From NCBI RefSeq assembly GCF_002797935.1, contig NZ_PGER01000001.1:1054001-1118000 (forward strand): a DNA stretch of 64,000 bases. The letters run 5' to 3'. This DNA comes from Flavobacterium sp. 1 (GTDB lineage Bacteria; Bacteroidota; Bacteroidia; Flavobacteriales; Flavobacteriaceae). A program made the translations under genes and the position numbers. The notes beneath the pieces were generated by a model. The model did no database searches. It had not been told where the DNA came from and worked only from the letters and a program-made list of their open reading frames with translations. Below, piece by piece: positions 14,364-47,101 of this stretch (position 1 is its first letter; each line of letters starts with the position of its first letter).

Positions 14364-16301
14364 ATGAAATCAAAAATTATTTTAGTTCTAGTTGTTATAT
14401 TTTGTTCTGGTTTTTCTTGGTCACAAAAAGCAGTACTGCAATCCCCCAATCAAAAAATTGTGGCAGCATTGTATGCTATCAATACTAATAATAATGGGGA
14501 ATGGTATTTGAAAGTGTCATATCATGCAGATAAAAACACATCCGAGATTCTTCCCAAAGTAAAACTTGGGCTTTCTCGAAGCGATCAAGATTTTTCGAAA
14601 GAACTCATTTTTTTAAAAGCCAGTAAGCCAAAAATAATAAAGGAACATTATATGCTTCCTTTTGGTAAAAAGTCATTACGGGACAATACAGCAAATGAAA
14701 TAACGATTTCATTTGAAAATCCAAATAAAGCAAAATTGAACCTTATTATTAGAGCCTATAACGACGGGCTTACTTTTCGATATGAATTTCCAGAAAAACA
14801 AGGCTCGTTTAGTATAATAGATGAATTTACTGCTTATCAAATACCAAAAGGAAGCGAGCGATGGCTGGAAAAATGGAATACTGCAAATGAAGGTTTATAT
14901 GCTGCTTCCAGCGACGATAAAATACTTCAGCAAGAATGGTGTTATCCTGCACTATTCAACTCTGCCGACAAAGCATGCTGGTATTTGCTTCATGAGGCAG
15001 ATTTAAGCCGAACGTATTGCGGAACAAAGTTAAGTAATACTCAAGATATAAATACTTATAAGCTTACTTTTCCAGACCCTAAAGATGGTAGAGGCACTGG
15101 AGAATCAAATCCAAGTATTTCGCTTCCATGGCAATCGCCTTGGAGGGTAATCAGCATTGGCAGTTTAGCCGATATTGTGGAAAGCACTTTGGTTGAAGAT
15201 GTGTCAGCTCCCACTAGTTTCAAAAGCGTTGATTGGATAAAACCTGGTAAAGTGTCTTGGAATTATTGGTCAAGTAATCACGGAACCAAAGATTATAAAA
15301 CCGTATGCGAATTTACCGATTTGGCTGTAAAAATGAATTGGCCTTATACTCTTTTAGATTGGGAATGGGATGCTATGGCAAATGGCGGAAATCTTGAAGA
15401 TGCTTTAAAATACATACATTCCAAAGGAATAAAACCTCTGATGTGGTACAACTCTGGAGGTAATCACACCTGGGTTTCATCTACTCCAAAAGATCGTATG
15501 CTTACTCATGAAAACAGGGTTGAAGAATTTACCAAACTCAAAAAAATGGGAGTTGCTGGGGTCAAAATTGATTTTTTTGAAAGCGAAAAACAGGATATGA
15601 TTAAATATTATCTTGACATTTTAGAAGATGCAGCACAATTCGAAATGATGGTATATTTTCATGGCTGTATTGTACCGCGCGGATGGTCACGCACTTATCC
15701 TAATTTAATGACTTATGAAGCAGTGCGAGGAGCAGAATGGTATAATAACGGTCCGGAATTTTCGATTACAGCACCAGAGCATAATACAGTTTTGCCTTTT
15801 ACAAGAAATGCAGTTGGAGCAATGGATTATACTCCAGTTACCTTTACCAATTCTCAATTTCCACATCATACCTCTTATGGACATGAGCTGGCTCTTTCCG
15901 TGATTTTCGAGTCTCCTTTACAGCATTTGGCAGACAGACCGGAAGGTTATTATGAACTGCCAGATGAAGCTAAAACTTTTTTGAAAGAAGTACCGACAGC
16001 TTGGGATAATACAAAACTTATTGATGGTTATCCAGGACTGGAAGTTACTATGGCACGCCAAAAAGGTGATTCATGGTTTGTTGGAGGCATTAATGCCTCA
16101 GAGCGCCAAGAAAAGACAAAAAAAATCAAGCTAGATTTTTTGAAAGAAGGGGTTAACTATCGTGCAGTGATCATTGCCGATGGTAATCATGATAAGGATT
16201 TTAATTCACAAGTAATGGCAGTAAATAAAAATAGCACTATTGAGGTAAAACTGCTTCGCAGAGGAGGTTTTGTCATTTCTTTAAACCCAATATATAAATA
16301 G
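14364..16301 (+). CDS. GH97 glycoside hydrolase (retaining, alpha-galactosidase-like)
   Basis: A 645-residue secreted enzyme with a signal peptide ending at FSWSQ (about residue 21). The order is the N-terminal GH97 beta-sandwich (about 25-275), the catalytic barrel from about 290 (IKPGKVSWNYW), and a small C-terminal beta-domain. The motif GVKIDFFE carries Asp403 at the nucleophile position of the retaining GH97 subgroup (BT1871-type alpha-galactosidases); the inverting SusB-type alpha-glucosidases lack this Asp. A conserved APEHNT Glu and the MDYTP segment are also present. It is transcribed divergently from the NUDIX regulator. The substrate is probably an alpha-galactoside or a beta-L-arabinopyranoside-like linkage, the second being known for some GH97 members. 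It is about 29% longer-spaced from the second GH97 of the window and clearly a separate paralogue. Confidence 0.92.
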   Translation: MKSKIILVLVVIFCSGFSWSQKAVLQSPNQKIVAALYAINTNNNGEWYLKVSYHADKNTSEILPKVKLGLSRSDQDFSKELIFLKASKPKIIKEHYMLPFGKKSLRDNTANEITISFENPNKAKLNLIIRAYNDGLTFRYEFPEKQGSFSIIDEFTAYQIPKGSERWLEKWNTANEGLYAASSDDKILQQEWCYPALFNSADKACWYLLHEADLSRTYCGTKLSNTQDINTYKLTFPDPKDGRGTGESNPSISLPWQSPWRVISIGSLADIVESTLVEDVSAPTSFKSVDWIKPGKVSWNYWSSNHGTKDYKTVCEFTDLAVKMNWPYTLLDWEWDAMANGGNLEDALKYIHSKGIKPLMWYNSGGNHTWVSSTPKDRMLTHENRVEEFTKLKKMGVAGVKIDFFESEKQDMIKYYLDILEDAAQFEMMVYFHGCIVPRGWSRTYPNLMTYEAVRGAEWYNNGPEFSITAPEHNTVLPFTRNAVGAMDYTPVTFTNSQFPHHTSYGHELALSVIFESPLQHLADRPEGYYELPDEAKTFLKEVPTAWDNTKLIDGYPGLEVTMARQKGDSWFVGGINASERQEKTKKIKLDFLKEGVNYRAVIIADGNHDKDFNSQVMAVNKNSTIEVKLLRRGGFVISLNPIYK

Positions 16302-16326
16302 CTCATAATTTTTAAAAACAATTTAT

Positions 16327-16626
16327 ATGCGGAGATTCATATACATTTTATTCTTAGGATTGCTGTCTGCATCCATTAGTGCACAGCAATATAAAAATTA
16401 TGTTTTAATGAAAGATAGATTATCTATAGATTTATCAGAAGAAGTGCTAAGTATAATTCCTCTTACCAACAAATCAATAGGGGTACAATATCAAATTGGA
16501 GATGTAAAAGAAGTAAGAGTTTGTCTTAATAAACAAACCTAATGCCCCCAGTTTTACATTGAAAGAAAGCGCAGCAAATTTACAGCTTATCACAATAATC
16601 CACATCCTGCTGGATAGTAACGCTTT
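16327..16626 (+). pseudogene. Frameshifted N-terminal remnant of a GH31 glycosidase
   Basis: The first frame (16327-16542) encodes 71 residues with a signal peptide and then QQYKNYVLMKDRLSIDL and IIPLTNKSIGVQYQIG. These align with the start of the intact GH31 at 55483 (VVKDYKKYIDKVIITL, LSPLTENSVRVQYGLE). After the stop, homology resumes in the +1 frame from 16541 with APSFTLKESAANLQLIT, matching VPDFKVSESSSLIEIT of the intact gene. It then fades at about 16626. The rest of the ~870-residue enzyme is missing, so this is a decayed GH31 gene that once followed the GH97 gene in the same operon (25-base gap). Confidence 0.8.
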
Positions 16627-16889
16627 TTTGCTTATTATATTTATGTTTCTAAGACAGTTGTTTCATTTATTCTTTAAAAACTCACAAAATATTCAATTTA
16701 AGATAATATAGTATTTGGTTAGGATAAAATATGGTTGTCCAAATTATAATAATTGCCTTTAAATTTACATATATTAATAATGTAAAAAACACACTCATTG
16801 AATATTAGGTGACAAGTATTAATTTATGAGGTTTTAAAAATAAAAAACAAAGACTGCAAGGTTTTATAAATATTGAAAATTAATTAATT
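16627..16889. other. AT-rich leader before the GH127 gene
   Basis: About 260 bases between the GH31 remnant and the GH127-family gene. No gene, operator copy or clear terminator is seen. The promoter of the following five-gene run presumably lies here. Confidence 0.4.
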
Positions 16890-19800
16890 ATGAAATTACA
16901 CAAGCTTTTTATATGTGCAATGTTAGGTTTTGGTTCTCTGAATACAGCATCCGTTTGGGCACAAGATGGTGACCAGATTTTAGATGGTATTGGCGAAACT
17001 GGATTAATTGCCCGTTATGTGTTTGATGGAGATGCAAAGGATTGGTCACGAAATAATTTACACGGCAAATCGGAATCGAAATTAAATTTTATAAATGACG
17101 ATCTGTTTGGTAAAGTACTTTCCTTAACACCAGATAATAAAACTTTTGTTGCAATTCCGGGAGAGGCGTTTGCTGGTGAAGAATCACTTAGTATCTCAGG
17201 ATGGATATATTTGCGTTCGGTGCAGCGCAATCAGCATTTTTTTGATTTTGGAAAAAATGCTAAATCACATTTTTTTGTTGTACCAGCGGGAATCAATAAT
17301 GATGCTGGCTTTCATTCTGAAATTATCACAGGTTCAGGAGGAAAATATAAAACGGATTCACCAATTTTAGAAGCTAATAAGTGGAATCATGTAGCAATTG
17401 TTATTGATATTCCTTCACAATCATTAAATGCTTATGTAAATGGTGTCCTTGTAAGTACAACTAAGAATGTAAATCTCAAATTAGAACAATTATTCGATAG
17501 TAATGCGGGTAAAAATAATATGCTTTATATAGGGAAATCGTTTTTATCTGAGGGTTCTTATCTAAATGCAAAATTGCATGATTTCAGATTGTATAGAGTT
17601 CCTTTAAATGAAAAACAAATTGGAAAAATTTACCATAATTCCTTGAAAGAAGAAGGGGAAGAGGAAGAAGAAACAGAAGAGGCTGTAGGCGATTTACCAA
17701 AGTTCTCCAAAACTACTCCTCAATTATATAATCAATATCTCACTAGTGTGTCCGACGTTAAAATAGAGACAGTAGTTGGCAGTCTTCCAAGATTACCGCG
17801 ATATGTTAAGGGGGTTTATCGAAATGGAATTGAGGGACCAGAAGTACGGGTTATTTGGCCAGCTCCAACAGATAACAATTCAGTGCTTAATGCTGGGCAA
17901 TATACGGTAATAGGGAGTGTAGCAGGTACTGATTTAAAGCCGAAAGCCGTTGTTACAGTAAAAGTTGCCAAAGAATCTGCCACACCAGAACTTAAGCTGA
18001 AAGCTTTCCATTTGGATGAAGTATCATTGGACTCAGATCTCCATGGGCACAATACAAAATTTATTGAAAATCGTAATAAGTTCATAAAAAATCTCGCTAA
18101 GACAAATCCGGATTCTTTTCTCTATATGTTTCGAAATGCCTTTGGACAAAAACAGCCCGAAGGAGCAGATGCATTAGGAGTATGGGATACTCAAGATACC
18201 AAATTACGTGGACATGCCACAGGACATTACTTGACAGCAATTGCTCAGGCCTATGCCAGTACTGGATATGACAAGGAATTACATGCTAATTTTGCTAATA
18301 AGATGGAGTATATGGTCAATACGCTTTATCAATTGGCACAGATGTCTGGACAACCGCAAACCGCTGGAGGAACTTATGTATCTGACCCTACCGCAGTTCC
18401 TAAAGGACCAGGCAAAGCAGATTATGATTCGGATTTGAGTAATGAGGGTATTCGTACTGATTACTGGAATTGGGGAAAAGGTTTCATTAGTGCCTACCCG
18501 CCAGATCAGTTTATAATGCTGGAAAAAGGCGCAACTTATGGTGGTCAGAAAATACAAATTTGGGCACCTTACTATACTTTGCATAAAATTCTTGCGGGTC
18601 TAATGGATATTTATGAGGTGAGTGGCAATAAAAAAGCCCTTGAAACGGCCAAAGGCATGGGAGATTGGGTTCACGCAAGAATGAAACAGTTGCCAAATGA
18701 AACGCTTATCAGTATGTGGAATCGATACATTGCGGGAGAGTTTGGAGGAATGAATGAAGCTATGGCACGTCTTTACAGAATAACAAATGAACATCGCTAT
18801 CTGGAAGTAGCCCAATTATTTGACAATATTAAAGTGTTTTATGGAGATGCTAAGCATTCCCACGGGTTGGCCAAAAATGTTGACACTTTCCGTGGATTGC
18901 ATGCTAATCAGCATATACCCCAAATTATGGGAGCACTGGAAATGTATCAGGATTCTAATGCTCCTGATTATTACCGCATAGCTGACAATTTTTGGTACAA
19001 AACCACAAATGATTATATGTACAGCATTGGGGGAGTTGCCGGAGCAAGCAATCCCGCAAATGCCGAATGCTTTATCAGTCAGCCTGCTACAATTTATGAA
19101 AACGGTTTTTCGGCAGGGGGGCAAAATGAAACTTGTGCAACGTATAACATGCTGAAATTGACCAGTAACTTGTTTCTTTATGAACAGCGCGGGGAATTAA
19201 TGGATTACTATGAGCGCGGGCTGTATAATGACATTCTTGCTTCTGTAGCAGAAAATACGGCTGCAAATACGTATCATATACCATTGCGTCCAGGTTCGAT
19301 AAAACAGTTTGGTAATGCAAAAATGAATGGTTTTACGTGCTGTAATGGAACGGCTTTAGAAAGCAACACGAAATTCCAGAATTCAATTTATTTTAAAAGC
19401 ATTGATAACCAGGTTCTCTATGTTAATCTGTATGTACCCTCAACACTAAAATGGACTGAAAGGAATGTGACAATTGTGCAAAAGACAGATTTTCCAAATG
19501 AAGACCATACACTTTTAACAATAAAAGGCGAAGGAAAATTTGATGTTAATGTGCGTGTCCCAAATTGGGCCACTAAAGGTTTTTTCGTAAAAATAAATGG
19601 TAAGGAAGAAAAAGTAAAAGCTGTTCCGGGAAGCTACCTTACATTAAGCCGTAAATGGAAAGATGGGGATACAATTGAGCTGCGTATGCCATTTCAATTT
19701 CATTTGGATCCAGTAATGGATCAGCAAAATATTGCCAGTTTATTTTACGGACCTATTTTGCTGGCGGCTCAAGAATCAGAACCATTAAAAGAATGGAGAA

Positions 19801-19946
19801 AAGTAACATTAGATGCTAAAGACATAAGTAAATCGATAAATGGTGATCCAGAGAAATTACAATTTGTTATTGATGGAGTTATTTTTAAGCCTTTTTATAA
19901 CACCTATGGACGTCATTCGGTTTATTTGGATGTTACGCTAAAATAA
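16890..19946 (+). CDS. GH127/GH146-family beta-L-arabinofuranosidase with LamG and Ig-like modules
   Basis: A 1018-residue secreted modular enzyme. Order: signal peptide to about residue 24 (VWAQ); a LamG-type concanavalin-like module (about 35-250); an acidic linker (EEEGEEEEETEEA); an Ig-like module (about 270-365); and a DUF1680 (PF07944) catalytic domain (about 370-1015). The zinc and nucleophile residues of the HypBA1-type enzymes are present: Glu747 and Cys749 in NETCATYN and the double Cys817-Cys818 in FTCCNGT, one of which is the thiolate nucleophile in this family. Known members release beta-L-arabinofuranose from hydroxyproline-linked arabino-oligosaccharides (GH127) or from pectic/arabinan side chains (GH146). 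Family placement between the two cannot be settled by eye. It is first gene of a run of five secreted proteins. Confidence 0.93.
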   Translation: MKLHKLFICAMLGFGSLNTASVWAQDGDQILDGIGETGLIARYVFDGDAKDWSRNNLHGKSESKLNFINDDLFGKVLSLTPDNKTFVAIPGEAFAGEESLSISGWIYLRSVQRNQHFFDFGKNAKSHFFVVPAGINNDAGFHSEIITGSGGKYKTDSPILEANKWNHVAIVIDIPSQSLNAYVNGVLVSTTKNVNLKLEQLFDSNAGKNNMLYIGKSFLSEGSYLNAKLHDFRLYRVPLNEKQIGKIYHNSLKEEGEEEEETEEAVGDLPKFSKTTPQLYNQYLTSVSDVKIETVVGSLPRLPRYVKGVYRNGIEGPEVRVIWPAPTDNNSVLNAGQYTVIGSVAGTDLKPKAVVTVKVAKESATPELKLKAFHLDEVSLDSDLHGHNTKFIENRNKFIKNLAKTNPDSFLYMFRNAFGQKQPEGADALGVWDTQDTKLRGHATGHYLTAIAQAYASTGYDKELHANFANKMEYMVNTLYQLAQMSGQPQTAGGTYVSDPTAVPKGPGKADYDSDLSNEGIRTDYWNWGKGFISAYPPDQFIMLEKGATYGGQKIQIWAPYYTLHKILAGLMDIYEVSGNKKALETAKGMGDWVHARMKQLPNETLISMWNRYIAGEFGGMNEAMARLYRITNEHRYLEVAQLFDNIKVFYGDAKHSHGLAKNVDTFRGLHANQHIPQIMGALEMYQDSNAPDYYRIADNFWYKTTNDYMYSIGGVAGASNPANAECFISQPATIYENGFSAGGQNETCATYNMLKLTSNLFLYEQRGELMDYYERGLYNDILASVAENTAANTYHIPLRPGSIKQFGNAKMNGFTCCNGTALESNTKFQNSIYFKSIDNQVLYVNLYVPSTLKWTERNVTIVQKTDFPNEDHTLLTIKGEGKFDVNVRVPNWATKGFFVKINGKEEKVKAVPGSYLTLSRKWKDGDTIELRMPFQFHLDPVMDQQNIASLFYGPILLAAQESEPLKEWRKVTLDAKDISKSINGDPEKLQFVIDGVIFKPFYNTYGRHSVYLDVTLK

Positions 19947-20011
19947 TTAGCGATAAAACTTCTAAGAAGTTATTACGATATTAACCAAAAACTAAAAAGT
20001 ATATAAACACA

Positions 20012-22711
20012 ATGAAAATGCAAATCACAAAAAAGTTTAGTTTATTATTGATTTTGATAGGAACCATGAGTGTTCAAGCTCAAGATTACTGGAGCAGAAT
20101 TGAAAAAAAAGAACCCACTTTGGGTATTGCCGAGGTGTATCAAAAATTCAGCACACCCACTTTTCAATTAAAATTAGTGAAAGCATCACAAACGGTCGCA
20201 GGTTTAAGATCTAATAAAAACCTGAATTTTGATTTTACGCCTAGTGACAGACTTGAAATTAGAGACAAAGATGGTTTGTATCATTTAGGTGATATAAATT
20301 TAAGAATTAAAGAAACTAACAGTGATTGGAAAAGTTATTCAACGGCTGCAAAACGTGGAGTAATTACACCTTTAGAAACTTCTCAAAAAATTTTAGCGGC
20401 TGCTGATCTAGCCAATACATTGCCTGCAGATATTCCGGTTACGATTAAAAGATATTATGAAACCAATGGAAATGATTTAATATTAAGATTTGTAATTACT
20501 AATAAAACTGCTAATAATATTGAGATAGGAGCTTTAGGTATTCCTATGATATTCAATAATATTTTAGAAGGGAGATCACTTAATGAAACGCATGCTCAAA
20601 ATGTGTTTTTCGATCCATACATTGGAATGGATGCTGGGTATTTAGAGGTTAAAAGATTAAGCGGAGAAGGACCAGCATTAGTTGTTATGCCTGAAGAAAA
20701 TATGGCTTTTGAAGCGTATCGTCCCCTAAATGATGATCCAACACCAAGAAGCATCGTTTTTGAAGGATTTCATGAATGGATGGTGTATAGCAAAGCCTAT
20801 GCTGATAATGAATGGAAAGGTGCGGAGCAATGGAACAAGCCGACATCATTAATTTTGAAACCTAACGAATCCAAAAGTTTTGCTTTAAAAATGGCATTGT
20901 CAGAAGGGATTGAGGATATCCAAAATACGCTTGTAAAAGAAGAAATTCCTGTAGCGACAAGTATACCTGGATATGTTCTTCCTCAAGATATCAAATCGCA
21001 GTTATTTTTAAATTACAAAAGCGATGTAAGCTCATTTGAAATTGAACCTAAAGGCACACTTCAAATAAAAGAAGATGGAAAAACGGCTAAAGGTCTAAAA
21101 AAATATACAGTTAGTGGTGTAAAATGGGGAAGAGTTAGATTAACTGTCAATTATAAAAATGGAGTAAAACAAACCATAAATTATAAAGTTATCAAGCCTG
21201 AAACCGAAGTTATTAAAGATTTTGGACATTTCTTGACAACGGCACAATGGTTTGACCAGCCCGATCCAATTTTTAAAAGAAATCCTTCGGTAATCAGTTA
21301 CGATTACGAAACCAAAAAACAATTAACTCAAGACAGCCGAGCTTGGGTTGCAGGTTTAAGTGACGAAGGCGGAGCAGGAGGCTGGTTAGCGGCTATAATG
21401 AAACAGCTTATCCAACCAGATAAAGAAGAAATTAAAAAGTTAGAGCAATTTGTAGATAAAACGCTTTGGGGTAATATTCAATACAGCGAAGGCAAAAATA
21501 AATACGGAGTTAAGAAAAGCGTATTTTATTATGAGCCAGATTCATTGCCAAAAGGTACTTACAGCAAAGATATAGATTATTCTACTTGGGCGGCTTGGAA
21601 GCATAAAGATGCAAATGATCCGGGAAGATCGTATAATTATCCCCACGTCGCTGCTGCCTATTGGACATTGTATCGTTTAGCACGATATAATACAGGTTTA
21701 GTCAATAGTAAATCTTGGGATTGGTATTTAAAGCAAGCGTATTATACATCGATAGCAATGACTGAGCAAGCTCCATATTATGCTCAGTTTGGTCAAATGG
21801 AAGGTTCTGTGTTTTTATTGATTTTAGAGGATTTGAAAAATGAAAACCTTACTGATATGTCATCCAGCTTAGAATCAAAGATGAAAGAAAGAGCGAATCA
21901 CTGGAGAGCACTCGAATATCCTTTTGGCAGTGAGATGCCATGGGACTCAACAGGTCAGGAAGAAGTATATATGTGGTCTGATTATTTTGGTTATGAAGAA
22001 AAGGCAGATGTAACTTTAAACGCAATTTTGGCTTATATGCCTACAATGCCGCACTGGGCTTATAATGGCAATGCCCGCAGATATTGGGATTTTTTATATG
22101 GAGGAAAATTATCAAGAGTAGAACGCCAGATTCATCATTACGGGTCTTCATTAAATGCTATTCCAGTGTTGAAACAATACAGAAAAAAACCGGAAGATTT
22201 GTATCTGTTAAAAGTGGGTTACGGAGGTCTTTTGGGCGGTATTTCAAACATTACCGAAGATGGATTTGGTCCAGCAGCATTTCACTCTTATCCTTCAGAG
22301 TTAAGAATTGACTATATATCTGGAGATTATGGTTCTGGTTTTTATGGCTATGCAGTCAATACAGCTACCTATATTACAAAAGAAGATGATTTAGGATGGT
22401 TGGCTTTTGGCGGTAATATCACTGCAAAAGGAGATATAGTGGAAGTAAAATTAACAACTGCGGCAAAATCTAAAGTATTTATTGGTCCAAAACAGTTGTG
22501 GTTAACATTGGATGCAGGAACTTTTGAAAAAGTAACTTATAATACTAAAACAGATGAGGTAGAGATTACCTTAAATAGTGAAAATGAATTTACTCCAAAT
22601 GCCTATTTGAGAATTAACAAAGATATCACGTTGCCTTATGCTAAAGTGCGAGGTGCATACGAAATACCTTTGCAAAAGAAAAGTATTCAAATAAAATTAC
22701 AGCAAAAATAA
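20012..22711 (+). CDS. Secreted DUF5695-like protein, putative glycoside hydrolase
   Basis: An 899-residue secreted protein with a signal peptide ending at SVQAQ (about residue 24). The N-terminal third is beta-rich (about 30-310) and resembles the sandwich domain that precedes (alpha/alpha)6 glycosidases. The central and C-terminal part (about 410-790) has many Trp/Tyr-rich helical segments such as DSRAWVAGLSDEGGAGGWL, YNYPHVAAAYWTLYRLARY, EEVYMWSDYFGYEEKAD and MPHWAYNGNARRYWDF, which look like helices around a carbohydrate cleft. I take it for DUF5695, a family without assigned chemistry to my knowledge. It sits between a beta-arabinofuranosidase and a GH43, so a role in trimming the same glycan is likely. 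It is followed by a strong terminator. Confidence 0.6.
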   Translation: MKMQITKKFSLLLILIGTMSVQAQDYWSRIEKKEPTLGIAEVYQKFSTPTFQLKLVKASQTVAGLRSNKNLNFDFTPSDRLEIRDKDGLYHLGDINLRIKETNSDWKSYSTAAKRGVITPLETSQKILAAADLANTLPADIPVTIKRYYETNGNDLILRFVITNKTANNIEIGALGIPMIFNNILEGRSLNETHAQNVFFDPYIGMDAGYLEVKRLSGEGPALVVMPEENMAFEAYRPLNDDPTPRSIVFEGFHEWMVYSKAYADNEWKGAEQWNKPTSLILKPNESKSFALKMALSEGIEDIQNTLVKEEIPVATSIPGYVLPQDIKSQLFLNYKSDVSSFEIEPKGTLQIKEDGKTAKGLKKYTVSGVKWGRVRLTVNYKNGVKQTINYKVIKPETEVIKDFGHFLTTAQWFDQPDPIFKRNPSVISYDYETKKQLTQDSRAWVAGLSDEGGAGGWLAAIMKQLIQPDKEEIKKLEQFVDKTLWGNIQYSEGKNKYGVKKSVFYYEPDSLPKGTYSKDIDYSTWAAWKHKDANDPGRSYNYPHVAAAYWTLYRLARYNTGLVNSKSWDWYLKQAYYTSIAMTEQAPYYAQFGQMEGSVFLLILEDLKNENLTDMSSSLESKMKERANHWRALEYPFGSEMPWDSTGQEEVYMWSDYFGYEEKADVTLNAILAYMPTMPHWAYNGNARRYWDFLYGGKLSRVERQIHHYGSSLNAIPVLKQYRKKPEDLYLLKVGYGGLLGGISNITEDGFGPAAFHSYPSELRIDYISGDYGSGFYGYAVNTATYITKEDDLGWLAFGGNITAKGDIVEVKLTTAAKSKVFIGPKQLWLTLDAGTFEKVTYNTKTDEVEITLNSENEFTPNAYLRINKDITLPYAKVRGAYEIPLQKKSIQIKLQQK

Positions 22712-22740
22712 TTCTTAGTGGTTTGAGAGTTATACTGAAG

Positions 22741-22777
22741 CAAAGGCAATTTTAATATTAATTGCCTTTGTTATTTT
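22741..22777 (+). terminator. Rho-independent terminator inside the secreted-enzyme run
   Basis: A perfect 10-base stem (CAAAGGCAAT / ATTGCCTTTG) with a 10-base loop is followed by TTATTTTT. It lies 30 bases behind the DUF5695-like gene and before the GH43 gene, so the run may be split into two transcripts or attenuated here. It also shows that the TTG at 22762 cannot be the start of the GH43 gene. Confidence 0.85.
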
Positions 22778-22827
22778 TAAGAATAAAAATTGACCAAATG
22801 GCTAGGGCTTTAAAAATTAATAATAAA

Positions 22828-33718: not shown

Positions 33719-33840
33719 TGTGGTTTTTTATAGAGTGGATTAGATTTTATTATCAATATCGAATACTATATTACTTGTTTAAGTTTTAAAATTAGAAATT
33801 TTGGATATTTTTTATAATGCAGATCTGGCGTCAATTACTT

Positions 33841-34695: not shown

Positions 34696-34844
34696 ACAGA
34701 TTTATATTTATTTGCGACTAAGTTATAATTAAAAAGTTAGGTAAGGGATAAAGTTAGCCTATTTTTAATTTAATTTGATATAAAATGATAATATAGTATC
34801 AAATGTAGATAACAAACCTAATAAAAATATTTGCAGTAACCCTT

Positions 34845-37478: not shown

Positions 37479-37479
37479 T

Positions 37480-38535: not shown

Positions 38536-40830
38536 ATGAAAAATAATTTACCCATTGTTACTTTTTTGATGTTATTTCTAAGTTGTAATTTTTATGCACA
38601 AAACAAAGAAATGACAGCTTATCAGCCTTCAAAAGCTGAAATTTTGGAGCGGTACAAACAAGCATTAAAATTGGATGATGCGGTTAAAAATAAAGTTTTT
38701 AAAACAAGAGTAAATGCACATTGGCAAAAGGATGGAAGTACATTTTGGTATTGCAATATTCTAAAGGACAGCGTCAGAGAATATATCTTGATTGACGCTT
38801 CAAAAGGTGTAAAAAAGAGGTTATTTGATGAGGTTAAACTAAAAAAAGCTTTAAGTGAAATTACAGGAAAATCAGTTCCTTCAAAAAGTTTGCTTATTGA
38901 TAGTTTAAATTATGATTCTAAGGCGTACTCAATAGCTTTAAAGTATGACAAAAGCTATTTTGAAGTGTCGTTATCAGATTATGGTATTAAAAAAGTTAGC
39001 TCATTAGCAAAAGATCTTAAAAAATATCCAAGTTTAAATAATCAATGGGCGAGATGGGAATCTTTTAAAACAGACAGTATTTCGCCCAATAAAAAGTGGC
39101 TGGGTTTTATCAAAGAGAATAATGTTTTTGTTAAACCGGTTAATGGAGGAGAAGCAATTCAATTCACAAAGGATGGCACTAAAGAGAAACCTTATGGTTC
39201 TTTGGCGTGGTCTCCCGACAGTAAATATATTGTTGGGTATCATATAACTCCTGTTGTTGATTTACCGGTTCATTACGTTTTGTCTTCGACAGCAAATACT
39301 GCCCGCGGGCAACTGCATTCACAACCCTATAAACAGCCAGGCGATCCTTTTACAACTTATGAGATGTTTTTGTTTCAAATTGAAAATCAAAAAGTATTAA
39401 AAGTAAATACACCTATAATTGATTTTTTTGACGCGCCCGAATTGCATTGGAGGCAGGGTGATGCAGATTATTTTATGTATGAAAAAGTAGATCGTGGACA
39501 TCAGCGGTTTCGAATAATTGAAGTTAATGCTCAAACTGCCGAAACCCGTTCAATCGTAGATGAAAGCACTAAAACTTTTATTTATGAATCCCGATTATTT
39601 ACACATTATCTGAAAAAAAATAATGAAGTTGTTATGTCTTCAGAGAAAGATGGTTGGAGACATCTCTATTTGGTTGATGCTTTGAATGGTAAAGAAAATC
39701 AAATTACTAAAGGAGAATGGGTTGTAAGAAGTGTTGATAGTATTGATGAAAACAAAAGAGAAATATGGTTTTCAGCAAGCGGGGTGAATACAAACGAAGA
39801 TCCATATTATGTGCATAGCTACCGCATTGGTTTTGATGGAAAAAAACTAATCAATCTTACTTTGCCAAAAGGAAATCATAATGTTGCTTTTTCGCCAAAT
39901 AAACAATATTACTTAGATTCTTATTCAGAGCCTAATGTTCCAACAATTATTGAGCTTCATCGCACTTCTGATGGAAAAAAAATATTAGATATTGAAAAAT
40001 CAGATGCTGCAGCATATTTAGCAACCGGGATGTCGCTTCCGGAACCATTTCATGCAAAAGGCAGAGATGGAGTTACTGATATTTGGGGGATAATATGCCG
40101 CCCGGCTAATTTTGATCCCAATAAAAAATATCCTGTAATTGAGAGTATTTATGCCGGTCCGCAGGATTCTTTTGTTCCCAAAAATTTCATGGACCGATAT
40201 ACTACCGAAATGCAGAGTATGGCTCAGTTAGGATTTATTGTTGTGCAGATTGACGGTATGGGAACTGCTAATCGTTCTAAAGCATTTCATGATGTTTGCT
40301 GGAAAAATTTGAAAGATGCAGGTTTTGAAGATAGAATCCTTTGGATAAAAGCTTTGGCAAAAAAATACAGTTATGTTGATGATTCCAGAGTAGGATTGTA
40401 TGGAACTTCGGCTGGAGGACAAAATGCTTTGGGCGGATTGTTGTTTCATCCTGAGTTTTACAAAGCAGGAGTTTCTGCTTGCGGATGTCATGATAATAGA
40501 GTTGATAAACAATGGTGGAATGAACAATGGATGGGATATCCGCTTGACAAACATTATGAAGAGCAGTCTAATGTTACCAATGCAGGCAAATTATCGGGTG
40601 ATTTATTACTGATTGTTGGCGAAGCCGATGAAAATGTACCGCCAGAATCTACCTATCGTGTTGCTGATGCATTAATTAAATGCGGTAAAACTTTTGAATT
40701 TCTGCCTTTGCCAGGTGTTGGACATAGTGATGGAGGACCTTATGGAAGAATGAGAAAGCGTGATTTCTTTGTGAAGCATTTATTAGGGGTTGATCCTCCG
40801 CAGCGCAACAGCAATGAGCTAAATCAATAA
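38536..40830 (+). CDS. S9 prolyl-type peptidase (DPP-IV family)
   Basis: A 764-residue exported peptidase with an N-terminal signal (MLFLSCNFYAQ; the SC could alternatively make it a lipoprotein). The propeller domain (about 100-510) contains WSPDSKYIVGY, and the alpha/beta-hydrolase domain has nucleophile Ser625 in GTSAGGQ, Asp in GEADENVPPE and His in GVGHSDGG. The nucleophile elbow is GxSxGG, as in the DPP-IV branch. It is the second S9 enzyme of the region and is embedded in the hydroxyproline operon, so it probably releases Hyp/Pro-containing dipeptides outside or in the periplasm. Confidence 0.93.
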   Translation: MKNNLPIVTFLMLFLSCNFYAQNKEMTAYQPSKAEILERYKQALKLDDAVKNKVFKTRVNAHWQKDGSTFWYCNILKDSVREYILIDASKGVKKRLFDEVKLKKALSEITGKSVPSKSLLIDSLNYDSKAYSIALKYDKSYFEVSLSDYGIKKVSSLAKDLKKYPSLNNQWARWESFKTDSISPNKKWLGFIKENNVFVKPVNGGEAIQFTKDGTKEKPYGSLAWSPDSKYIVGYHITPVVDLPVHYVLSSTANTARGQLHSQPYKQPGDPFTTYEMFLFQIENQKVLKVNTPIIDFFDAPELHWRQGDADYFMYEKVDRGHQRFRIIEVNAQTAETRSIVDESTKTFIYESRLFTHYLKKNNEVVMSSEKDGWRHLYLVDALNGKENQITKGEWVVRSVDSIDENKREIWFSASGVNTNEDPYYVHSYRIGFDGKKLINLTLPKGNHNVAFSPNKQYYLDSYSEPNVPTIIELHRTSDGKKILDIEKSDAAAYLATGMSLPEPFHAKGRDGVTDIWGIICRPANFDPNKKYPVIESIYAGPQDSFVPKNFMDRYTTEMQSMAQLGFIVVQIDGMGTANRSKAFHDVCWKNLKDAGFEDRILWIKALAKKYSYVDDSRVGLYGTSAGGQNALGGLLFHPEFYKAGVSACGCHDNRVDKQWWNEQWMGYPLDKHYEEQSNVTNAGKLSGDLLLIVGEADENVPPESTYRVADALIKCGKTFEFLPLPGVGHSDGGPYGRMRKRDFFVKHLLGVDPPQRNSNELNQ

Positions 40831-40870
40831 TAGCATTAATGAGTATGTAATTATAATTCAAAAATCATTT

Positions 40871-42661
40871 ATGATAAAATTATTTAAAAGTAAAATCGCT
40901 TTATTCTTCACGATGCTGTTTCTAATGGTATGGGCATCTGCACCTGTTTTTGCTCAGAATTTCAAAAATGACTTATATCTGCAGACAAGTGAAGTAAATA
41001 ATACAATGGTGCACTATGAAGCGGATAAAGGAAGCATCATGCGTTTTTATTCGACTAATAGTACAGCGTATACTTTTGGAATTAATAATGACGAGAATAA
41101 TTACAATACCCCAGAGCGAAGAACACGCCTCCTGCAGCTAATAAGTGATTATAAAAAAGAACTTAAAAGTTTAGATTTTGATGCCATGAGTAACAATGGC
41201 AAAGTGGATTATATTTTATTCAATCGAAATTTAAAAAATGAGGAATATGAGTTGCAGCAACAGCAGAAAACTTATGAAAGTATAAAGAAATATTTTCCTT
41301 TTGAAGAAAGAATATATGCGCTGGAAAAACCTCGCCGCAGAGGAATTAAAGTAAATGCCGAGGGTGTCGCCAAAGAAATGGATGATTTACGCAAAGTAAT
41401 TACAGAACAGATAAAAATTGCAGATAAGGCAGAAGGTCTTGATAAAAGAGCTTCAGAATTTGCTGTCTCACACGCAAAAGGACTACAGAATATTTTAAAA
41501 AATTATTTTGATTTTTATAATGGTTATGATCCTTTATTTTCTTGGTGGGTACCAAAAACCTATGCTGAAGTTGATGCAGTATTACAAGAATATGGAACTT
41601 TATTAAAGTCAAAAAGAAAAGAAACCAGTACCCAAAAAGATGATGGCAGCGGTATTATAGGAAATCCTATTGGGAGAGAGGAAATAATCCGTCAATTGGA
41701 GACAGAATTTATTGCTTACTCACCAGAAGAGCTAGTTGCTATCGCCAATAAAGAATTTGCGTGGTGTGATGCTGAATTATTGAAAGCTTCTCGTGAAATG
41801 GGTTATGGAGATAATTGGAAGACAGCACAAGAGAAAGTAAAAAATTCATTTGTTGCTCCTGGTGATCAACCACAGGCAATGTTGGATTTATACAATCAGT
41901 CAGTAGATTTTTTAAAAAAGAACGATCTTTTAACGATTCCTCCAATTGCTGAAGAAACTTGGAGAATGTACATGATGTCTCCAGAGGCGCAAAAAATAAA
42001 TCCATTTTTTCTGGGAGGTGAATCGCTTATCATATCTTATCCTACGAGCAGTATGTCGTATAGTGATAAAATGATGAGCATGAGAGGCAATAATCCCAAC
42101 TTTTCTAGAGCAACAATTCATCATGAGCTAATAGCAGGTCATCATCTGCAGCAGTTTATGAGAGACAGATACAAAGCATATCGTCATTTTGATACTCCGT
42201 TTTGGGTAGAAGGGAACTCATTGTATTGGGAAATGCTGTTATGGGATTTAAAATTCCCTCAAACTCCTCAAGACAAAATAGGAATGCTGTTTTGGCGCAT
42301 GCATCGCTGCGCCCGAATTATTTTTTCTTTAAATTATCATTTGGGGAAATGGACTCCGCAGCAGTGTATTGATTTTTTAGTGGACAGAGTGGGACACGAA
42401 CGAGCCAATGCTGAAGGAGAAGTGCGCCGCTCATTTGTGGGTGGATACAGCCCATTATATCAAATTGCCTATATGATTGGAGGATTACAATTTACAGCAT
42501 TAGAAAATGAATTGGTTGTAAATGGGAAAATGAGTTATAAGGAATATCATGATGCAATTTTACGCGAAAATGCCATGCCAATTGAGTTATTAAGGGCATT
42601 ATTGACCAATCAGCCTTTGCAGAGAGATTTTAAAACCAATTGGAAATTTTATAAATTTTAA
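40871..42661 (+). CDS. DUF885-family metallopeptidase-like secreted protein
   Basis: A 596-residue exported protein (signal peptide ending at APVFAQ, about residue 29) that matches DUF885, a family related to zinc carboxypeptidases. The HELIAGHHLQ stretch (His418, Glu419, His424) is the expected HExxxGHxxQ motif. The second half has the usual WVEGNSLYWEMLLWDL and a Glu-rich RANAEGEVRRSF segment. It lies between an S9 peptidase and a D-amino-acid dehydrogenase in the hydroxyproline operon. A role in final breakdown of proline-rich peptides is inferred from this position. Confidence 0.85.
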   Translation: MIKLFKSKIALFFTMLFLMVWASAPVFAQNFKNDLYLQTSEVNNTMVHYEADKGSIMRFYSTNSTAYTFGINNDENNYNTPERRTRLLQLISDYKKELKSLDFDAMSNNGKVDYILFNRNLKNEEYELQQQQKTYESIKKYFPFEERIYALEKPRRRGIKVNAEGVAKEMDDLRKVITEQIKIADKAEGLDKRASEFAVSHAKGLQNILKNYFDFYNGYDPLFSWWVPKTYAEVDAVLQEYGTLLKSKRKETSTQKDDGSGIIGNPIGREEIIRQLETEFIAYSPEELVAIANKEFAWCDAELLKASREMGYGDNWKTAQEKVKNSFVAPGDQPQAMLDLYNQSVDFLKKNDLLTIPPIAEETWRMYMMSPEAQKINPFFLGGESLIISYPTSSMSYSDKMMSMRGNNPNFSRATIHHELIAGHHLQQFMRDRYKAYRHFDTPFWVEGNSLYWEMLLWDLKFPQTPQDKIGMLFWRMHRCARIIFSLNYHLGKWTPQQCIDFLVDRVGHERANAEGEVRRSFVGGYSPLYQIAYMIGGLQFTALENELVVNGKMSYKEYHDAILRENAMPIELLRALLTNQPLQRDFKTNWKFYKF

Positions 42662-42681
42662 TAAACTAAATAAGAATAATT

Positions 42682-43932
42682 ATGAAACATGTTGTAGTTA
42701 TTGGTGGAGGAATCATTGGGCTTAGTTCTGCATTTTATTTGCAGCAAAGCGGTTGTAAAGTCACCGTTATCGATAAAGATAATTTTGAAGATAACTGTTC
42801 TTACGGTAATGCTGGATATGTATGTCCAAGCCATTTTATACCATTGGCAGCTCCTGGTATTATTTGGCAGGGTTTCAAATGGATGTTTAATCCAAAAAGC
42901 CCATTTTATGTAAAGCCATCATTGAATAAGGCTTTAATAGATTGGGGATTTAATTTTGCAAAAAGTGCTACTCAAAAAAATGTAATTAAGTCTGCCATAC
43001 CGCTTTGTGATATTTCTTTATTAAGTCAGCATGAATTTGAGCAATGGGCAAAAATTCCAGGTTTTGAATTTGGTTATGAACACAAAGGAATGCTTGAAGT
43101 TTTTCAGACAGAAGCCGTAGCCAAACATGCACATCATACGATTGAAAAAGCTCATGAATTAGGGCTGGATGTAAGTTTACTGAATTATGATGATCTGCAG
43201 TTATTAGAGCCTCAGACAAAAATCAATGCTATTGGTGCTTTACAGTTTAAATGTGACGCTCATGTTTATCCTGATAAGCTGATGAAAGTTTTGAAAGAAC
43301 ATTTATTGGCTCAAGGCGTTACTTTTCAATACGGAGAGACAGTTGTTTCTTTTGAAAAAGAAAATGGGGCAGTTACAAAAGTAATTACTGATAAACAATC
43401 CTATTTAGCAGACGAGCTTGTTATTGCGGCTGGAGCATGGAGTAAAGAAATGGCTGAATTGGTAGATGCTAAAATATCATTAATGCCGGGAAGAGGCTAT
43501 TCTTTAACATTGGAAGATTCTATTTATAAAGTAAATCATCCCATGATTCTCGCCGAAGGCAGAGTAGCAATTACGCCTATGGACGGTAATAAAATTAGAT
43601 TTGGAGGCACAATGGAAGTTGTTCCTACAACCGCAAAGCCACAGTATCACCGTATTGAAGGCGTACTGAGAGCGGTGAAAGACTTTTTACCGGAATTTGA
43701 TATTCAAAAACCATTGGAAGAAAATATTTGGTACGGTTACAGACCTTGTTCTGCAGACGGGCTGCCTTACATTGGTAAAATAAAAAAATACAATAATGTT
43801 GTTGTTGCTACAGGACATTCAATGATGGGGCTTAGTCTTGGTCCTGGTACGGGAAAATTAGTTTCACAATTAATTAATAGAGAACCGACCAGTATCGATA
43901 TTAAAGCATTTGAGGTAGAAAGATTTAATTAA
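42682..43932 (+). CDS. FAD-dependent D-amino-acid dehydrogenase, probably D-hydroxyproline dehydrogenase
   Basis: A 416-residue flavoprotein of the DadA/D-amino-acid oxidase type. The FAD-binding VVVIGGGIIGLSSAF motif is at the N-terminus, and the C-terminal part has YGYRPCSADGLPYIG and GHSMMGLSLGPGTGKL, which close the FAD site. It would oxidise cis-4-hydroxy-D-proline to 1-pyrroline-4-hydroxy-2-carboxylate, the step between the epimerase and the DapA-family deaminase. There is no signal peptide. With this gene all four steps to 2-oxoglutarate are present in one operon. Confidence 0.9.
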   Translation: MKHVVVIGGGIIGLSSAFYLQQSGCKVTVIDKDNFEDNCSYGNAGYVCPSHFIPLAAPGIIWQGFKWMFNPKSPFYVKPSLNKALIDWGFNFAKSATQKNVIKSAIPLCDISLLSQHEFEQWAKIPGFEFGYEHKGMLEVFQTEAVAKHAHHTIEKAHELGLDVSLLNYDDLQLLEPQTKINAIGALQFKCDAHVYPDKLMKVLKEHLLAQGVTFQYGETVVSFEKENGAVTKVITDKQSYLADELVIAAGAWSKEMAELVDAKISLMPGRGYSLTLEDSIYKVNHPMILAEGRVAITPMDGNKIRFGGTMEVVPTTAKPQYHRIEGVLRAVKDFLPEFDIQKPLEENIWYGYRPCSADGLPYIGKIKKYNNVVVATGHSMMGLSLGPGTGKLVSQLINREPTSIDIKAFEVERFN

Positions 43933-44103
43933 AAAGGGTGGTTCCTTTCATACTGATTTCCTTTCTGGTTTAAATTAATTATAAATATTAACCATCATCG
44001 TTGTTCCATAGTAAAGGATTTAGGGATCTTTAAATCTAATTTAAAAAATAATTCTATCCCTTTTTAGAAATATAATAACTAATCAAAACTAATCAACCTA
44101 CGA

Positions 44104-45513
44104 ATGAAATCTTCAACAAAGAAAAATAATTTTAAACGATCGCTAGGTTTATTAGATGCCACTATGATTGTTGCCGGTTCCATGATTGGGTCGGGAATTT
44201 TTATTGTGAGTGCAGATATTGTCCGTAATGTTGGATCGGCAGGCGCTTTATTGCTTATTTGGCTGCTAACCGGTTTTTTAACAATTGCGGCTGCATTAAG
44301 TTATGGAGAATTAAGCAGTATGTTCCCTAAAGCTGGAGGGCAGTATGTTTATTTGAGAGAATCTTTTAATTCGCTTACTGGGTTTTTATACGGCTGGAGT
44401 TTTTTCGCAGTGATACAAACAGGTTCTATTGCTGCAGTAGGTGTCGCTTTCAGTAAATTTGCAGCCTATGTTTTTCCTTCGTTGAGTGAAAATAATATCA
44501 TTCTGAATTTAGGACTTTTGCAGATATCGGCAGCACAATTGACGTCTATAATTCTTGTTGTTTTTCTGACTTACATAAATACAAGAGGAGTGAAAGAAGG
44601 AAAAACGATTCAGACAGTTTTTACATTGGTAAAACTAATTGCATTGTTTGGGCTTATTATTTTTGGTTTTGTTTTAGCTGCAAAGGCAGATATTTGGAAA
44701 GCCAACTGGAGTACTGGTTTTTCAATAAATAAATTAGAAGGGAATACACTTATTCCTTATTCAGGATTTGCGATAATGGGAGCTGTAGCAGCGAGTCTTG
44801 TGGGCAGTTTGTTTAGCAGCGACTCATGGAACAATGTAACTTTTATTGCGGGTGAAATTAAAAACCCATCAAAAAATATTGGCAGAAGTCTTTTTCTTGG
44901 GACACTGATTGTAACAATTATTTATATCGCTGCTAATATGATGTACCTATCGGTACTTTCTTTAAATGAAATTGCGAATGCCGAAAATGACCGCGTTGGT
45001 GTTGTGGCTTCGCAGCATATTTTTGGAGATTCAGGAACTTATATTATTGCTGTATTATTGATGATTTCTACTTTTGGCTGTAATAACGGGCTAATACTTT
45101 CTGGAGCTCGTGTTTATCATACTATGGCAACGGATGGGCTTTTTTTTAAGAAATTAGGACAGTTAAATAAAAACGGAGTACCGGAAAAAGCGTTATGGAT
45201 GCAATGTGTTTGGGCTTCTGTACTTTGTTTAAGCGGAAAATATAATGAACTGCTGGATTATGTAATATTTGTTGTTCTGATCTTTTACATCTTAACAATT
45301 GCTGGTATTTTTAGGCTTCGAAGAACAAAACCAGATTTAGACAGACCTTACAAGGCAATAGGCTATCCAGTGCTGCCATTTATTTATATTGTTGCAGCAT
45401 CCAGTATCTGCATTATGCTTTTGGTATATAAATGCAGCTCTTCTTTACCAGGATTAGCAATAGTGTTATTAGGAATTCCGCTTTATTATTATTTTGTAAA
45501 TAAAGAGAAATAA
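44104..45513 (+). CDS. APC-superfamily amino-acid permease
   Basis: A 469-residue inner-membrane transporter with about 12 membrane helices. The first helix motif MIVAGSMIGSGIFIV is the classic APC substrate-binding segment. The following regions (MFPKAGGQYVYLRESF, FIAGEIKNPSKNIGRSLFLG and FRLRRTKPDLDRPYKAIGYP) are typical of the family. In this operon, hydroxyproline, proline or short related amino acids are the likely cargo. A 171-base gap precedes it, so it may have its own promoter, while the next gene follows after four bases. Confidence 0.92.
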   Translation: MKSSTKKNNFKRSLGLLDATMIVAGSMIGSGIFIVSADIVRNVGSAGALLLIWLLTGFLTIAAALSYGELSSMFPKAGGQYVYLRESFNSLTGFLYGWSFFAVIQTGSIAAVGVAFSKFAAYVFPSLSENNIILNLGLLQISAAQLTSIILVVFLTYINTRGVKEGKTIQTVFTLVKLIALFGLIIFGFVLAAKADIWKANWSTGFSINKLEGNTLIPYSGFAIMGAVAASLVGSLFSSDSWNNVTFIAGEIKNPSKNIGRSLFLGTLIVTIIYIAANMMYLSVLSLNEIANAENDRVGVVASQHIFGDSGTYIIAVLLMISTFGCNNGLILSGARVYHTMATDGLFFKKLGQLNKNGVPEKALWMQCVWASVLCLSGKYNELLDYVIFVVLIFYILTIAGIFRLRRTKPDLDRPYKAIGYPVLPFIYIVAASSICIMLLVYKCSSSLPGLAIVLLGIPLYYYFVNKEK

Positions 45514-45517
45514 TTTT

Positions 45518-47101
45518 ATGAGAGATTTGTCATTCTTAGGTGAAAAGTACTGCCGTATTTTCCTTTTTGTTTTTCTATTGAATATAATGGCTGTAAAGAA
45601 TAATTCTGTACAGGCACAATCCGTAAATTCTGTACTGCAATATACTGTTTCAATGCCAAACCCTGATAGTCATTATTTTCATGTTGAACTTAATTGCTCT
45701 GGATGGAAAGATGACACTATTGATTTTAAAATGCCAAATTGGATGCCAGGTTATTACCAAATAATGAATCACAGTAAAATGGTTGAAAATTTTGCTGCAA
45801 AAAGCAATAACAAAATTCTAGCTGTAAAAAAAGTAAATGAAAATACTTGGCAGATAAAAGCGGCTAAGAACAAACCACTCACATTGAGTTATGATGTAAA
45901 AGCCGATAAGCAGTTTGTAGCCAACAGCTATTTAGATGCTTCACATGCTTATATCATTCCAAATAGTTTGTTTTTATATATAGACAAACATATAAATATT
46001 CCCGTTACTGTAAAAATTTCAGGACTTAAAGCAGGATTTAAAATAGCGACCGGTTTAGAATCTGCTGCGGGAAAAAGTAATGAATTTACAACTCCAAATT
46101 TTGATATTTTATACGATTGTCCAATACTGATCGGGGATTTAGAAGAATTGCCTTCTTTTAAAGTAAATGGAATCCAACACCGTTTTATAGGTTATAAAAT
46201 GGGTAATTTCGATAGGATAACATTTATGAATAATTTAAAAAAAGTGGTCGAATCGGCAGTAGCGATTATTGGTGATATTCCTTATAAACAATATACATTT
46301 ATAGGAATTGGTCCGGGGCAGGGAGGTATTGAACACTTGAATAATACAACGGTAAGTTTTGATGGAACTGGATTAGATAATCCCGAAGGGATGAATACGA
46401 TGATGAGTTTTTTGGCTCATGAATATTTTCATCATTACAATGTAAAACGGATTAGGCCTTTTGAATTAGGACCTTTTGATTATGACAAAGGAAATAAGAC
46501 AAACCTTTTGTGGGTAAGTGAAGGACTGTCAGTTTATTACGAATATCTGATTGTCAAAAGAGCGGGGCTTGTGAGTCAGCAGACTTTGTTTAATAATTTT
46601 GAGAGCAGCATCAACGCTTTTGAAAACAGTCCTGGCCGATTCTATCAGTCATTAGTTCAGTCAAGTTTTGAAACATGGAACGACGGACCTTTTGGAAAAC
46701 AAGGGGAGAATGCTAATAAATCTATTTCGTATTATGACAAAGGACCAGCTGTAGGGCTTATTCTTGATTTTGCCATTCGTCAGGCAGCACAAAATAGAAA
46801 ATCCTTAGATGATGTGATGCGGTTTTTATATTGGGAGTATTATAAAAAACTACAGCGCGGATTTACCGATGCTGAATTTCAGAATGCCTGCGAAACTGTA
46901 GCAGGAATCTCATTAGCAAATGTGTTTGAATATGTTTATACAACAAAAGAGATTGATTATAATTCGTATCTGTCTTATGCTGGTTTAAGGATGAATACAG
47001 AATTGGATTCAAATTCTAAAGCCAAAAAATATTCATTCAAACTTTTGGAATTAATAAATCAAACACAGCAAAAAACACTGGATTTATGGCTGGATAAATA
47101 A
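45518..47101 (+). CDS. M61-family (glycyl-aminopeptidase-like) peptidase
   Basis: A 527-residue exported protein with a signal peptide ending at SVQAQ (about residue 34). The M61 N-terminal domain (about 40-210; PNWMPGYYQI) precedes the catalytic domain with HEYFHH (His301, Glu302, His305) and the Glu ligand in WVSEGLSVYYEY. Family members often end with a PDZ domain; here the chain stops soon after the helical DVMRFLYWEYYKKL region, so the PDZ is missing or very divergent. Last gene of the hydroxyproline/peptide operon, four bases after the permease. Confidence 0.88.
   Translation: MRDLSFLGEKYCRIFLFVFLLNIMAVKNNSVQAQSVNSVLQYTVSMPNPDSHYFHVELNCSGWKDDTIDFKMPNWMPGYYQIMNHSKMVENFAAKSNNKILAVKKVNENTWQIKAAKNKPLTLSYDVKADKQFVANSYLDASHAYIIPNSLFLYIDKHINIPVTVKISGLKAGFKIATGLESAAGKSNEFTTPNFDILYDCPILIGDLEELPSFKVNGIQHRFIGYKMGNFDRITFMNNLKKVVESAVAIIGDIPYKQYTFIGIGPGQGGIEHLNNTTVSFDGTGLDNPEGMNTMMSFLAHEYFHHYNVKRIRPFELGPFDYDKGNKTNLLWVSEGLSVYYEYLIVKRAGLVSQQTLFNNFESSINAFENSPGRFYQSLVQSSFETWNDGPFGKQGENANKSISYYDKGPAVGLILDFAIRQAAQNRKSLDDVMRFLYWEYYKKLQRGFTDAEFQNACETVAGISLANVFEYVYTTKEIDYNSYLSYAGLRMNTELDSNSKAKKYSFKLLELINQTQQKTLDLWLDK

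Follow-up and report, generated by a model that had tools for sequence, protein, structure and literature searches.

The genome of Flavobacterium sp. 1 carries a cluster of glycosidase, peptidase and 4-hydroxyproline (Hyp) catabolic genes that probably forms a single regulon for O-glycosylated, hydroxyproline-rich glycoproteins such as plant extensin. We analyzed this cluster in a stretch of 64,000 nucleotides, here called the window (contig NZ_PGER01000001.1, positions 1,054,001 to 1,118,000; G000:C1:1054001-1118000), which lies inside a single-contig genome of 5.35 Mb. An earlier reading of the same stretch (the original prediction) had proposed that the organism strips the glycans of such proteins, cuts the backbone and burns the Hyp, with chance adjacency of two unrelated loci as the alternative; Pfam recovered every gene it named, each where it had been placed. 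Extensin is decorated with Hyp-linked arabinofuranosides and Ser-linked alpha-galactose, and the combination of beta- and alpha-L-arabinofuranosidases, an alpha-galactosidase and Hyp catabolism matches that decoration. Judged purely from these enzyme classes, extensin would be the substrate.

The system comprises four presumed transcription units. The first encodes GH127-DUF5695-GH43-GH97b-DUF6055 (16890-28298, plus strand), the second M1-DPP4a-M24 (33668-28379, minus strand, closely preceded on that strand by the regulator gene AraC1), and the third DHDPS-ALDH-4HypE-DPP4b-DUF885-DAO-permease-M61 (34877-47101, plus strand; ALDH, aldehyde dehydrogenase; 4HypE, 4-hydroxyproline epimerase). The fourth, SusC_B-SusD_B (47592-52192, plus strand), lies beyond the range of the original prediction. 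The whole is best described as a regulon resembling a polysaccharide utilization locus (PUL) but extended to protein and its typical amino acid.

A promoter site common to glycan and hydroxyproline genes

The claim that the two halves belong together is borne out by a common promoter site, by the placement of GH127-family genes within Hyp operons in other genera and by a class-wide excess of such neighbors. The site is a 13-mer, GATAATATAGTAT, first spotted by eye in the intergenic stretches before GH127 and the Hyp operon; a third copy precedes SusC_B. Where 0.25 copies at up to one mismatch would be expected in the window, there are three, a count not attained in any of 100 shuffles. In seven Flavobacterium relatives the 13-mer is kept at all three promoters (0-2 mismatches), and its distance to the gene is 88-100 bp for DHDPS, 141-152 bp for SusC_B and 186-378 bp for GH127. 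Aligned sites from 8 Flavobacterium genomes gave a bipartite form, GATAATATANTAT-N8-GATAA, whose GATAA half-sites stand 21 bp apart, a direct-repeat spacing that would be as expected for an AraC-type operator. Because the motif was derived from these 8 genomes, they are no independent test of it; the other strains are independent of the derivation.

The 5.35 Mb genome contains three exact copies of the bipartite form, and all three stand at the promoters in question. Site 1 (GATAATATAGTAT-N8-GATAA, 16702..16727, plus strand) is 188 bp upstream of GH127, site 2 (34787..34812, plus strand) lies between AraC1 and the Hyp operon, and site 3 (47454..47479, plus strand) is 138 bp upstream of SusC_B. 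Allowing two mismatches, the genome scan adds a weaker copy before M1-DPP4a-M24 (33750..33775, minus strand) and five others, while a reversed control gives ten matches. At three mismatches, the count in the window was not clearly above chance. Flavobacterium sp. MC2016-06 (6.2 Mb) has four exact copies, three of them before GH127, DHDPS and SusC_B; the fourth stands beside AraC1 and is by position the M1 promoter, M1 itself lying beyond the fetched stretch. In F. aquicola the M1-promoter site has one mismatch. This species also has four exact copies, two of them elsewhere: upstream of a second DUF6055 gene and beside a further SusC operon some 9 kb away from GH127.

Does the site extend beyond the strains from which it was derived? 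In 73 named loci of other strains we found 44 copies at up to two mismatches, spread over 35 loci, and none of the reversed pattern; since the strains are related, the 44 copies are not independent. Nearly all of them (41 of 44) precede a system gene by at most 500 bp, and such upstream stretches account for 14% of the bases; 24 copies precede a DPP-IV gene that mostly stands ahead of GH127. We also considered 18 Hyp loci from genomes whose halves lie far apart, are unlinked or fall on other contigs. The site stands just before the operon in 8 and not in 10, and in 4 of those 8 (G527, G536, G538 and G545) the glycan locus has it as well, so that both separated halves carry the site. One of these is Maribacter sp. 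MMG018 (G527), where no aldehyde dehydrogenase gene is present in the Hyp operon as fetched and an unlinked homologue (47% identity; L234:6339-8014) has an exact site about 105 bp upstream.

AraC1 (33841..34695, minus strand; assigned by Pfam) is the proposed regulator and would bind the site before each unit. The direct-repeat site precedes the units, more weakly before M1 in the window, and an AraC gene adjoins; homologues of AraC1 stand beside the site in other genera. In Muricauda sp. CP2A, an AraC1 homologue (50%) with a one-mismatch site just upstream lies off the main locus, adjoined by a convergent DUF885 gene (54%; L235:5467-8300). A plasmid search with the AraC1/DHDPS promoter stretch gave no match. 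The SusC-like TonB-dependent transporter SusC_B (47592..50585, plus strand; Pfam), whose gene is first in the Hyp operon of several relatives, and the SusD-like lipoprotein SusD_B (50597..52192, plus strand; Pfam and neighborhoods in relatives) are adjacent to the other units and have the promoter site in common with GH127. The pair is part of the system.

Coupling across relatives and repeated assembly

A scan with DUF5695 yielded 214 related loci, of which the best 80 were kept; the nearest gene among the records listed is from F. aquicola (94% protein identity). The 10-kb flanks of these 80 contain a GH127 orthologue in 64, a peptidase of the present families in 63 and a Hyp-pathway gene in 27. 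In Allomuricauda, Galbibacter, Sinomicrobium, Tamlana and a second Flavobacterium group, the order is SusC-SusD, AraC, DHDPS-ALDH-4HypE-DAO-DPP4-GH127-DUF885-(GH51)-DUF5695-(GH43), with some members missing here or there, and the GH127-family gene sits within the Hyp operon. Muricauda loci have an AraR regulator, GH51, araB, araD and araA in addition.

We searched 50 of the 80 genomes whole, chosen for spread after their 10-kb neighborhoods had been seen. The 4-Hyp epimerase was present in 49 and the GH127 orthologue (at least 63% identity) in 48. No more than 10 kb separates the two in 23 genomes, in each of which they share a strand; the number rises to 25 at a limit of 20 kb and to 29 at 40 kb. 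The corresponding figures for the 37 GH127 paralogues of the same genomes are 0, 1 and 2. The epimerase lies within 20 kb of DUF5695 or the GH127 orthologue in 31 of the 50, which agrees with the expectation that the halves stay together in relatives; it does not in the other 19, partly because contigs end.

To our second set, 395 genomes drawn evenly from the class, the selection bias of the 50 does not apply. DUF5695 (E at most 1e-50) occurs in 8 and the 4-Hyp epimerase (E at most 1e-140) in 39, and all 8 are among the 39 (hypergeometric probability about 4e-9, calculated by hand). The two genes are no more than 15 kb apart in 7 of the 8; in the exception, G471, 939 kb separate them. The epimerase genomes contain 74 GH127-family matches, in 25 of the 39. 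Thirteen of these matches, in 11 genomes, lie within 20 kb of the epimerase against 0.59 expected (Poisson 1e-13, a test that assumes independent genes, which relatives violate), and 28 of the 39 genomes have none that near. With the window's genus excluded, 11 matches in 9 genomes remain against 0.51 expected. The control family GH28 (polygalacturonase), which comprises plant-wall enzymes, has 71 matches and only one near the epimerase, with 0.56 expected. Of the alpha-galactosidase families, 4 of 29 GH27 matches (0.24 expected) and 2 of 18 GH36 matches (0.14 expected) are near it; GH36 alone was not significantly so outside the window's genus (1 against 0.11, P 0.11). All four family counts are of profile matches, a few of which share one open frame.

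The coupling has arisen repeatedly. In a tree of 73 of the 74 GH127-family proteins (a quick tree with long-branch warnings, row G318 left out), the 13 Hyp-adjacent proteins do not form one clade and require at least 7 label changes along starred branches. They occupy about five places, some in the window's LamG-bearing clade and others in two further large groups. In the f55 genomes G230, G319, G396 and G417, which have no DUF5695 match, a GH127 gene stands ahead of DHDPS-ALDH-4HypE-DAO; these proteins are 46-47% identical to a Muricauda GH127 that bears all three GH127 domains, and in G230 and G319 a GH27 gene lies between GH127 and the Hyp genes. In G495, 4HypE and DAO flank a GH127 gene; G153 has a facing cluster, DPP4-GH127-DUF885-GH127-SusD-SusC. 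The alpha-galactosidase family varies by lineage: GH97 in the window's group, GH36 in 12 of the 80 loci of other strains and in G063, and GH27 in the f55 genomes. Such exchange between families of equal activity is the pattern to be expected if the substrate stays fixed. On balance, we favor a previously undescribed and widespread Bacteroidota nutrient regulon that dismantles O-arabinosylated, Hyp-rich glycoproteins completely, from sugar to hydroxyproline. It would have come together on several occasions out of differing glycosidase families; DUF5695 and DUF6055 would be new enzyme families, the former cleaving glycans and the latter consisting of metallopeptidases that cut glycoproteins.

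Enzymes, proposed pathway and competing explanations

The first gene of unit 1 (16890..19946, plus strand) encodes a LamG + Big_4 + GH127-family protein with Pfam catalytic (PF07944, 237.6 bits) and middle domains. In alignments with solved relatives, its residues E747, C749, C817 and C818 coincide with the conserved ETC and CC motifs, in agreement with the beta-L-arabinofuranosidase of GH127/GH146 type named in the original prediction, and the protein is predicted to be secreted. HypBA1, cited there, is not the closest solved protein: the nearest solved relative is 5opj (207.6 bits), which we take to be of GH146 type, rather than 3wkw (35.7 bits), presumably HypBA1 itself. We do not consider the protein a HypBA1 orthologue. 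Next to it, the GH43 protein (22762..24990, plus strand; Pfam), also named before, has F5/8C (CBM32-like) and LamG domains and is a predicted alpha-L-arabinofuranosidase.

Two GH97 proteins had been described as retaining alpha-galactosidases of the system. In both, the nucleophile position is occupied by Asp, and the Glu typical of retaining members follows downstream. For GH97b (25020..26981, plus strand; Pfam) the assignment stands: its best solved relative is the alpha-galactosidase 3a24 (521 bits, query 27-647), its Asp aligns with the position at which the otherwise similar 5e1q chain has Gly, and it is a predicted retaining alpha-galactosidase. GH97a (14364-16301; Pfam) is closest to 5xfm, which is labeled an alpha-glucosidase and which we take to be a beta-L-arabinopyranosidase/alpha-galactosidase of B. 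thetaiotaomicron. No GH97a match is listed in the seven nearest Flavobacterium loci (L013-L019), and weak ones occur in L039, L070, L077 and L079 (31-40%) and in G291 (34%). Because of this absence and because promoter site 1 separates it from GH127, we place GH97a outside the unit that bears the site; contrary to the original prediction, it probably does not belong to the system.

Two families of unknown function complete unit 1, with alignments built from the fetched loci. The DUF5695 protein (20012..22711, plus strand; Pfam), to which the original prediction gave no name, is predicted to share the fold of BACCELL_00875, which we take to be the PL27 L-rhamnose-alpha-1,4-D-glucuronate lyase of arabinogalactan protein, and is a predicted carbohydrate-active enzyme; a profile search against the PDB returned no matches. 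DUF6055 (26985..28298, plus strand) had been noted for its HExxH motif. H160, E161 and H164 of this motif, together with E184, are invariant in all 22 aligned sequences, as in gluzincins, and the protein is a predicted secreted zinc metallopeptidase with a C-terminal beta-sandwich. Foldseek with its model gave no convincing match. The second DUF6055 gene of F. aquicola (L232:7892-10410, 744 aa), unlinked to the locus and with its exact site upstream, suggests that DUF6055 is itself a member of the regulon.

The peptidases and the Hyp pathway were likewise as described. Pfam assigns an M24/AMP_N Xaa-Pro aminopeptidase/dipeptidase (28379..29767, minus strand), the S9 DPP-IV-type peptidases DPP4a (29801..31948, minus strand) and DPP4b (38536..40830, plus strand; both DPPIV_N+S9), an M1 aminopeptidase-type protein (31995..33668, minus strand), the putative peptidase DUF885 (40871..42661, plus strand), an M61 peptidase (45518..47101, plus strand) and an amino-acid permease (44104..45513, plus strand). 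By eye the M24 enzyme has no signal peptide and is probably cytoplasmic. The proline-racemase family gene (37480..38490, plus strand) exceeds the NCBIfam cut-off for 4-hydroxyproline epimerase at equivalog level (NF010578, 592 against 376 bits). The other three enzymes stand with it in one operon and are assigned at family level, the first also by context: a DHDPS-family protein (34877..35791, plus strand; predicted hydroxypyrroline-carboxylate deaminase), an aldehyde dehydrogenase (35892..37478, plus strand; predicted 2-oxoglutarate semialdehyde dehydrogenase) and an FAD-dependent DAO-family oxidase (42682..43932, plus strand; predicted D-hydroxyproline dehydrogenase). Several Hyp operons (L217:5387-7117; also G250, G430 and G451) have a gene of about 575 aa just before the epimerase; the G250 copy bears an HExxH motif and by eye resembles DUF885.

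From these classes we infer activities and an order of steps. The SusC/SusD pair would import glycopeptides, and the DUF6055 metallopeptidase would cleave the protein. GH43 would take off outer alpha-L-arabinofuranose, the GH127-family enzyme the beta-L-arabinofuranoses on Hyp, and GH97b alpha-galactose such as that on extensin serine, while DUF5695 may attack a further linkage of the same glycan. The DPP-IV-type, M1, M61, DUF885 and M24 enzymes would then degrade the Pro/Hyp-rich backbone, the permease would import Hyp or small peptides, and the epimerase, D-Hyp oxidase, deaminase and aldehyde dehydrogenase would convert Hyp to 2-oxoglutarate. Each unit would be controlled by AraC1.

Could the substrate be something other than extensin? 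The chief rival keeps the regulon and has it trim the Hyp-linked type II arabinogalactan of arabinogalactan protein and use the protein core. It owes this rank to the predicted fold of DUF5695, which is that of the presumed arabinogalactan-protein lyase, and to GH42, which occurs in 17 of the 80 related loci; the kinship of GH97a with 5xfm also speaks for it. However, GH42 is not among the window's Pfam matches, those of the site-bearing units include no GH16, GH35, GH105 or GH88 for cutting beta-1,3/1,6-galactan or finishing lyase products, and the pair that recurs is beta-L-arabinofuranosidase with alpha-galactosidase. We consider this substrate unlikely. It is somewhat easier to envisage, though still doubtful, that the natural substrate is an algal Hyp-rich glycoprotein of which land-plant extensin is a look-alike. 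Many carriers belong to genera that we take to be marine (Allomuricauda, Maribacter, Leeuwenhoekiella and Galbibacter), and one, A. amphidinii, is named for a dinoflagellate host, but plant- or soil-named Flavobacterium (strain Root420, F. soyae and F. glycines) are carriers too, with habitats taken from names only. The marine carriers suggest algal glycoproteins as further substrates.

Two further explanations were weighed. If the ligand and main role were Hyp or collagen peptide, the glycosidases would be passengers, and the AraC1 homologue does stay with the Hyp operon where the fetched 20 kb show no glycan genes (for example, G388 and G507). Yet GH127, GH43/GH51 and an alpha-galactosidase recur in separate lineages, one family replacing another, and collagen is not known to carry arabinose; we regard this account as very improbable. 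Least probable of all is that an arabinan locus and a regulon for collagen or Hyp peptides adjoin by chance. The halves are indeed separate in G471, G527, G548 and G550, and some Hyp operons have none of these glycosidases in the fetched stretch, but the exact sites in common, the GH127-family genes within Hyp operons of other genera and the presence of the site at both halves in the four genomes that hold them apart are hard to reconcile with chance. The site, the class draw (13 against 0.59) and the flat GH28 control lead us to reject it.

Surroundings, known systems and significance

The window also contains genes outside the glycoprotein regulon or of unsure relation to it. An NrtR/AraR-type regulator (13324..14043, minus strand) is a possible arabinose sensor of uncertain membership; AraR homologues adjoin GH51 and araBDA in the Muricauda loci. 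Just ahead of promoter site 1, a short frame with a signal-like start (16327-16542) resembles by eye the start of the GH31 gene at 55483 and may be a decayed gene. On one side lies a xylan-type locus (2-7951 and 8601-12677; SusD, DUF5627, GH10 and GH5-family genes) with an HTCS regulator, whose frame 2-2152 resembles a SusC end and has no Pfam match. On the other is a further glycan cluster of GH29, GH31 and GH51 with a second HTCS-like gene (53589-64000), including a 114-aa frame (58152-58496) that by eye is presumably a sugar mutarotase. We left out this cluster and the xylan locus (2-7951), which have no site at up to three mismatches. Rfam and tRNA scans gave no matches.

How does the system compare with known ones? 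The Bifidobacterium longum HypAA/HypBA2/HypBA1 locus (GH43, GH121 and GH127) and Xanthomonas XehA/XehB/XaeC reportedly degrade Hyp-linked arabino-oligosaccharides and, like the present locus, place alpha- and beta-L-arabinofuranosidases next to each other. Unlike this locus, they are said to lack peptidases, alpha-galactosidase and Hyp catabolism; here, moreover, the GH127-family enzyme is nearer GH146 and DUF5695 is included. The SusC/SusD pair, the secreted glycosidases and the signs of one regulator recall Bacteroidota PULs, whereas the proposed AraC-type regulator, a site common to four units and a gene content that is half peptidases and amino-acid catabolism set it apart. The 4-hydroxyproline operons reported from Pseudomonas and Sinorhizobium unite the same four enzyme families; here they are coupled to plant-glycan removal and glycoprotein cutting. 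The arabinogalactan and arabinan loci of B. thetaiotaomicron, together with PL27 BACCELL_00875, reportedly have GH127/GH146, GH43 and GH97 members, and DUF5695 is predicted to share the fold of that lyase; their galactan enzymes, however, are not seen in this locus, and Hyp catabolism is said to be absent there. Mucin-type O-glycopeptidases (M60, for example AM0627) are also among the closest known systems.

Little is known of how bacteria digest the Hyp-rich wall proteins of plants and algae, and studies of glycan removal and of Hyp use have reportedly been separate. The locus links the two directly and in a testable way. Its motif is a handle for finding further members of the regulon, and the locus provides context for DUF5695 and DUF6055, both Pfam families of unknown function. 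In some marine strains, the system may bear on the turnover of algal wall proteins.

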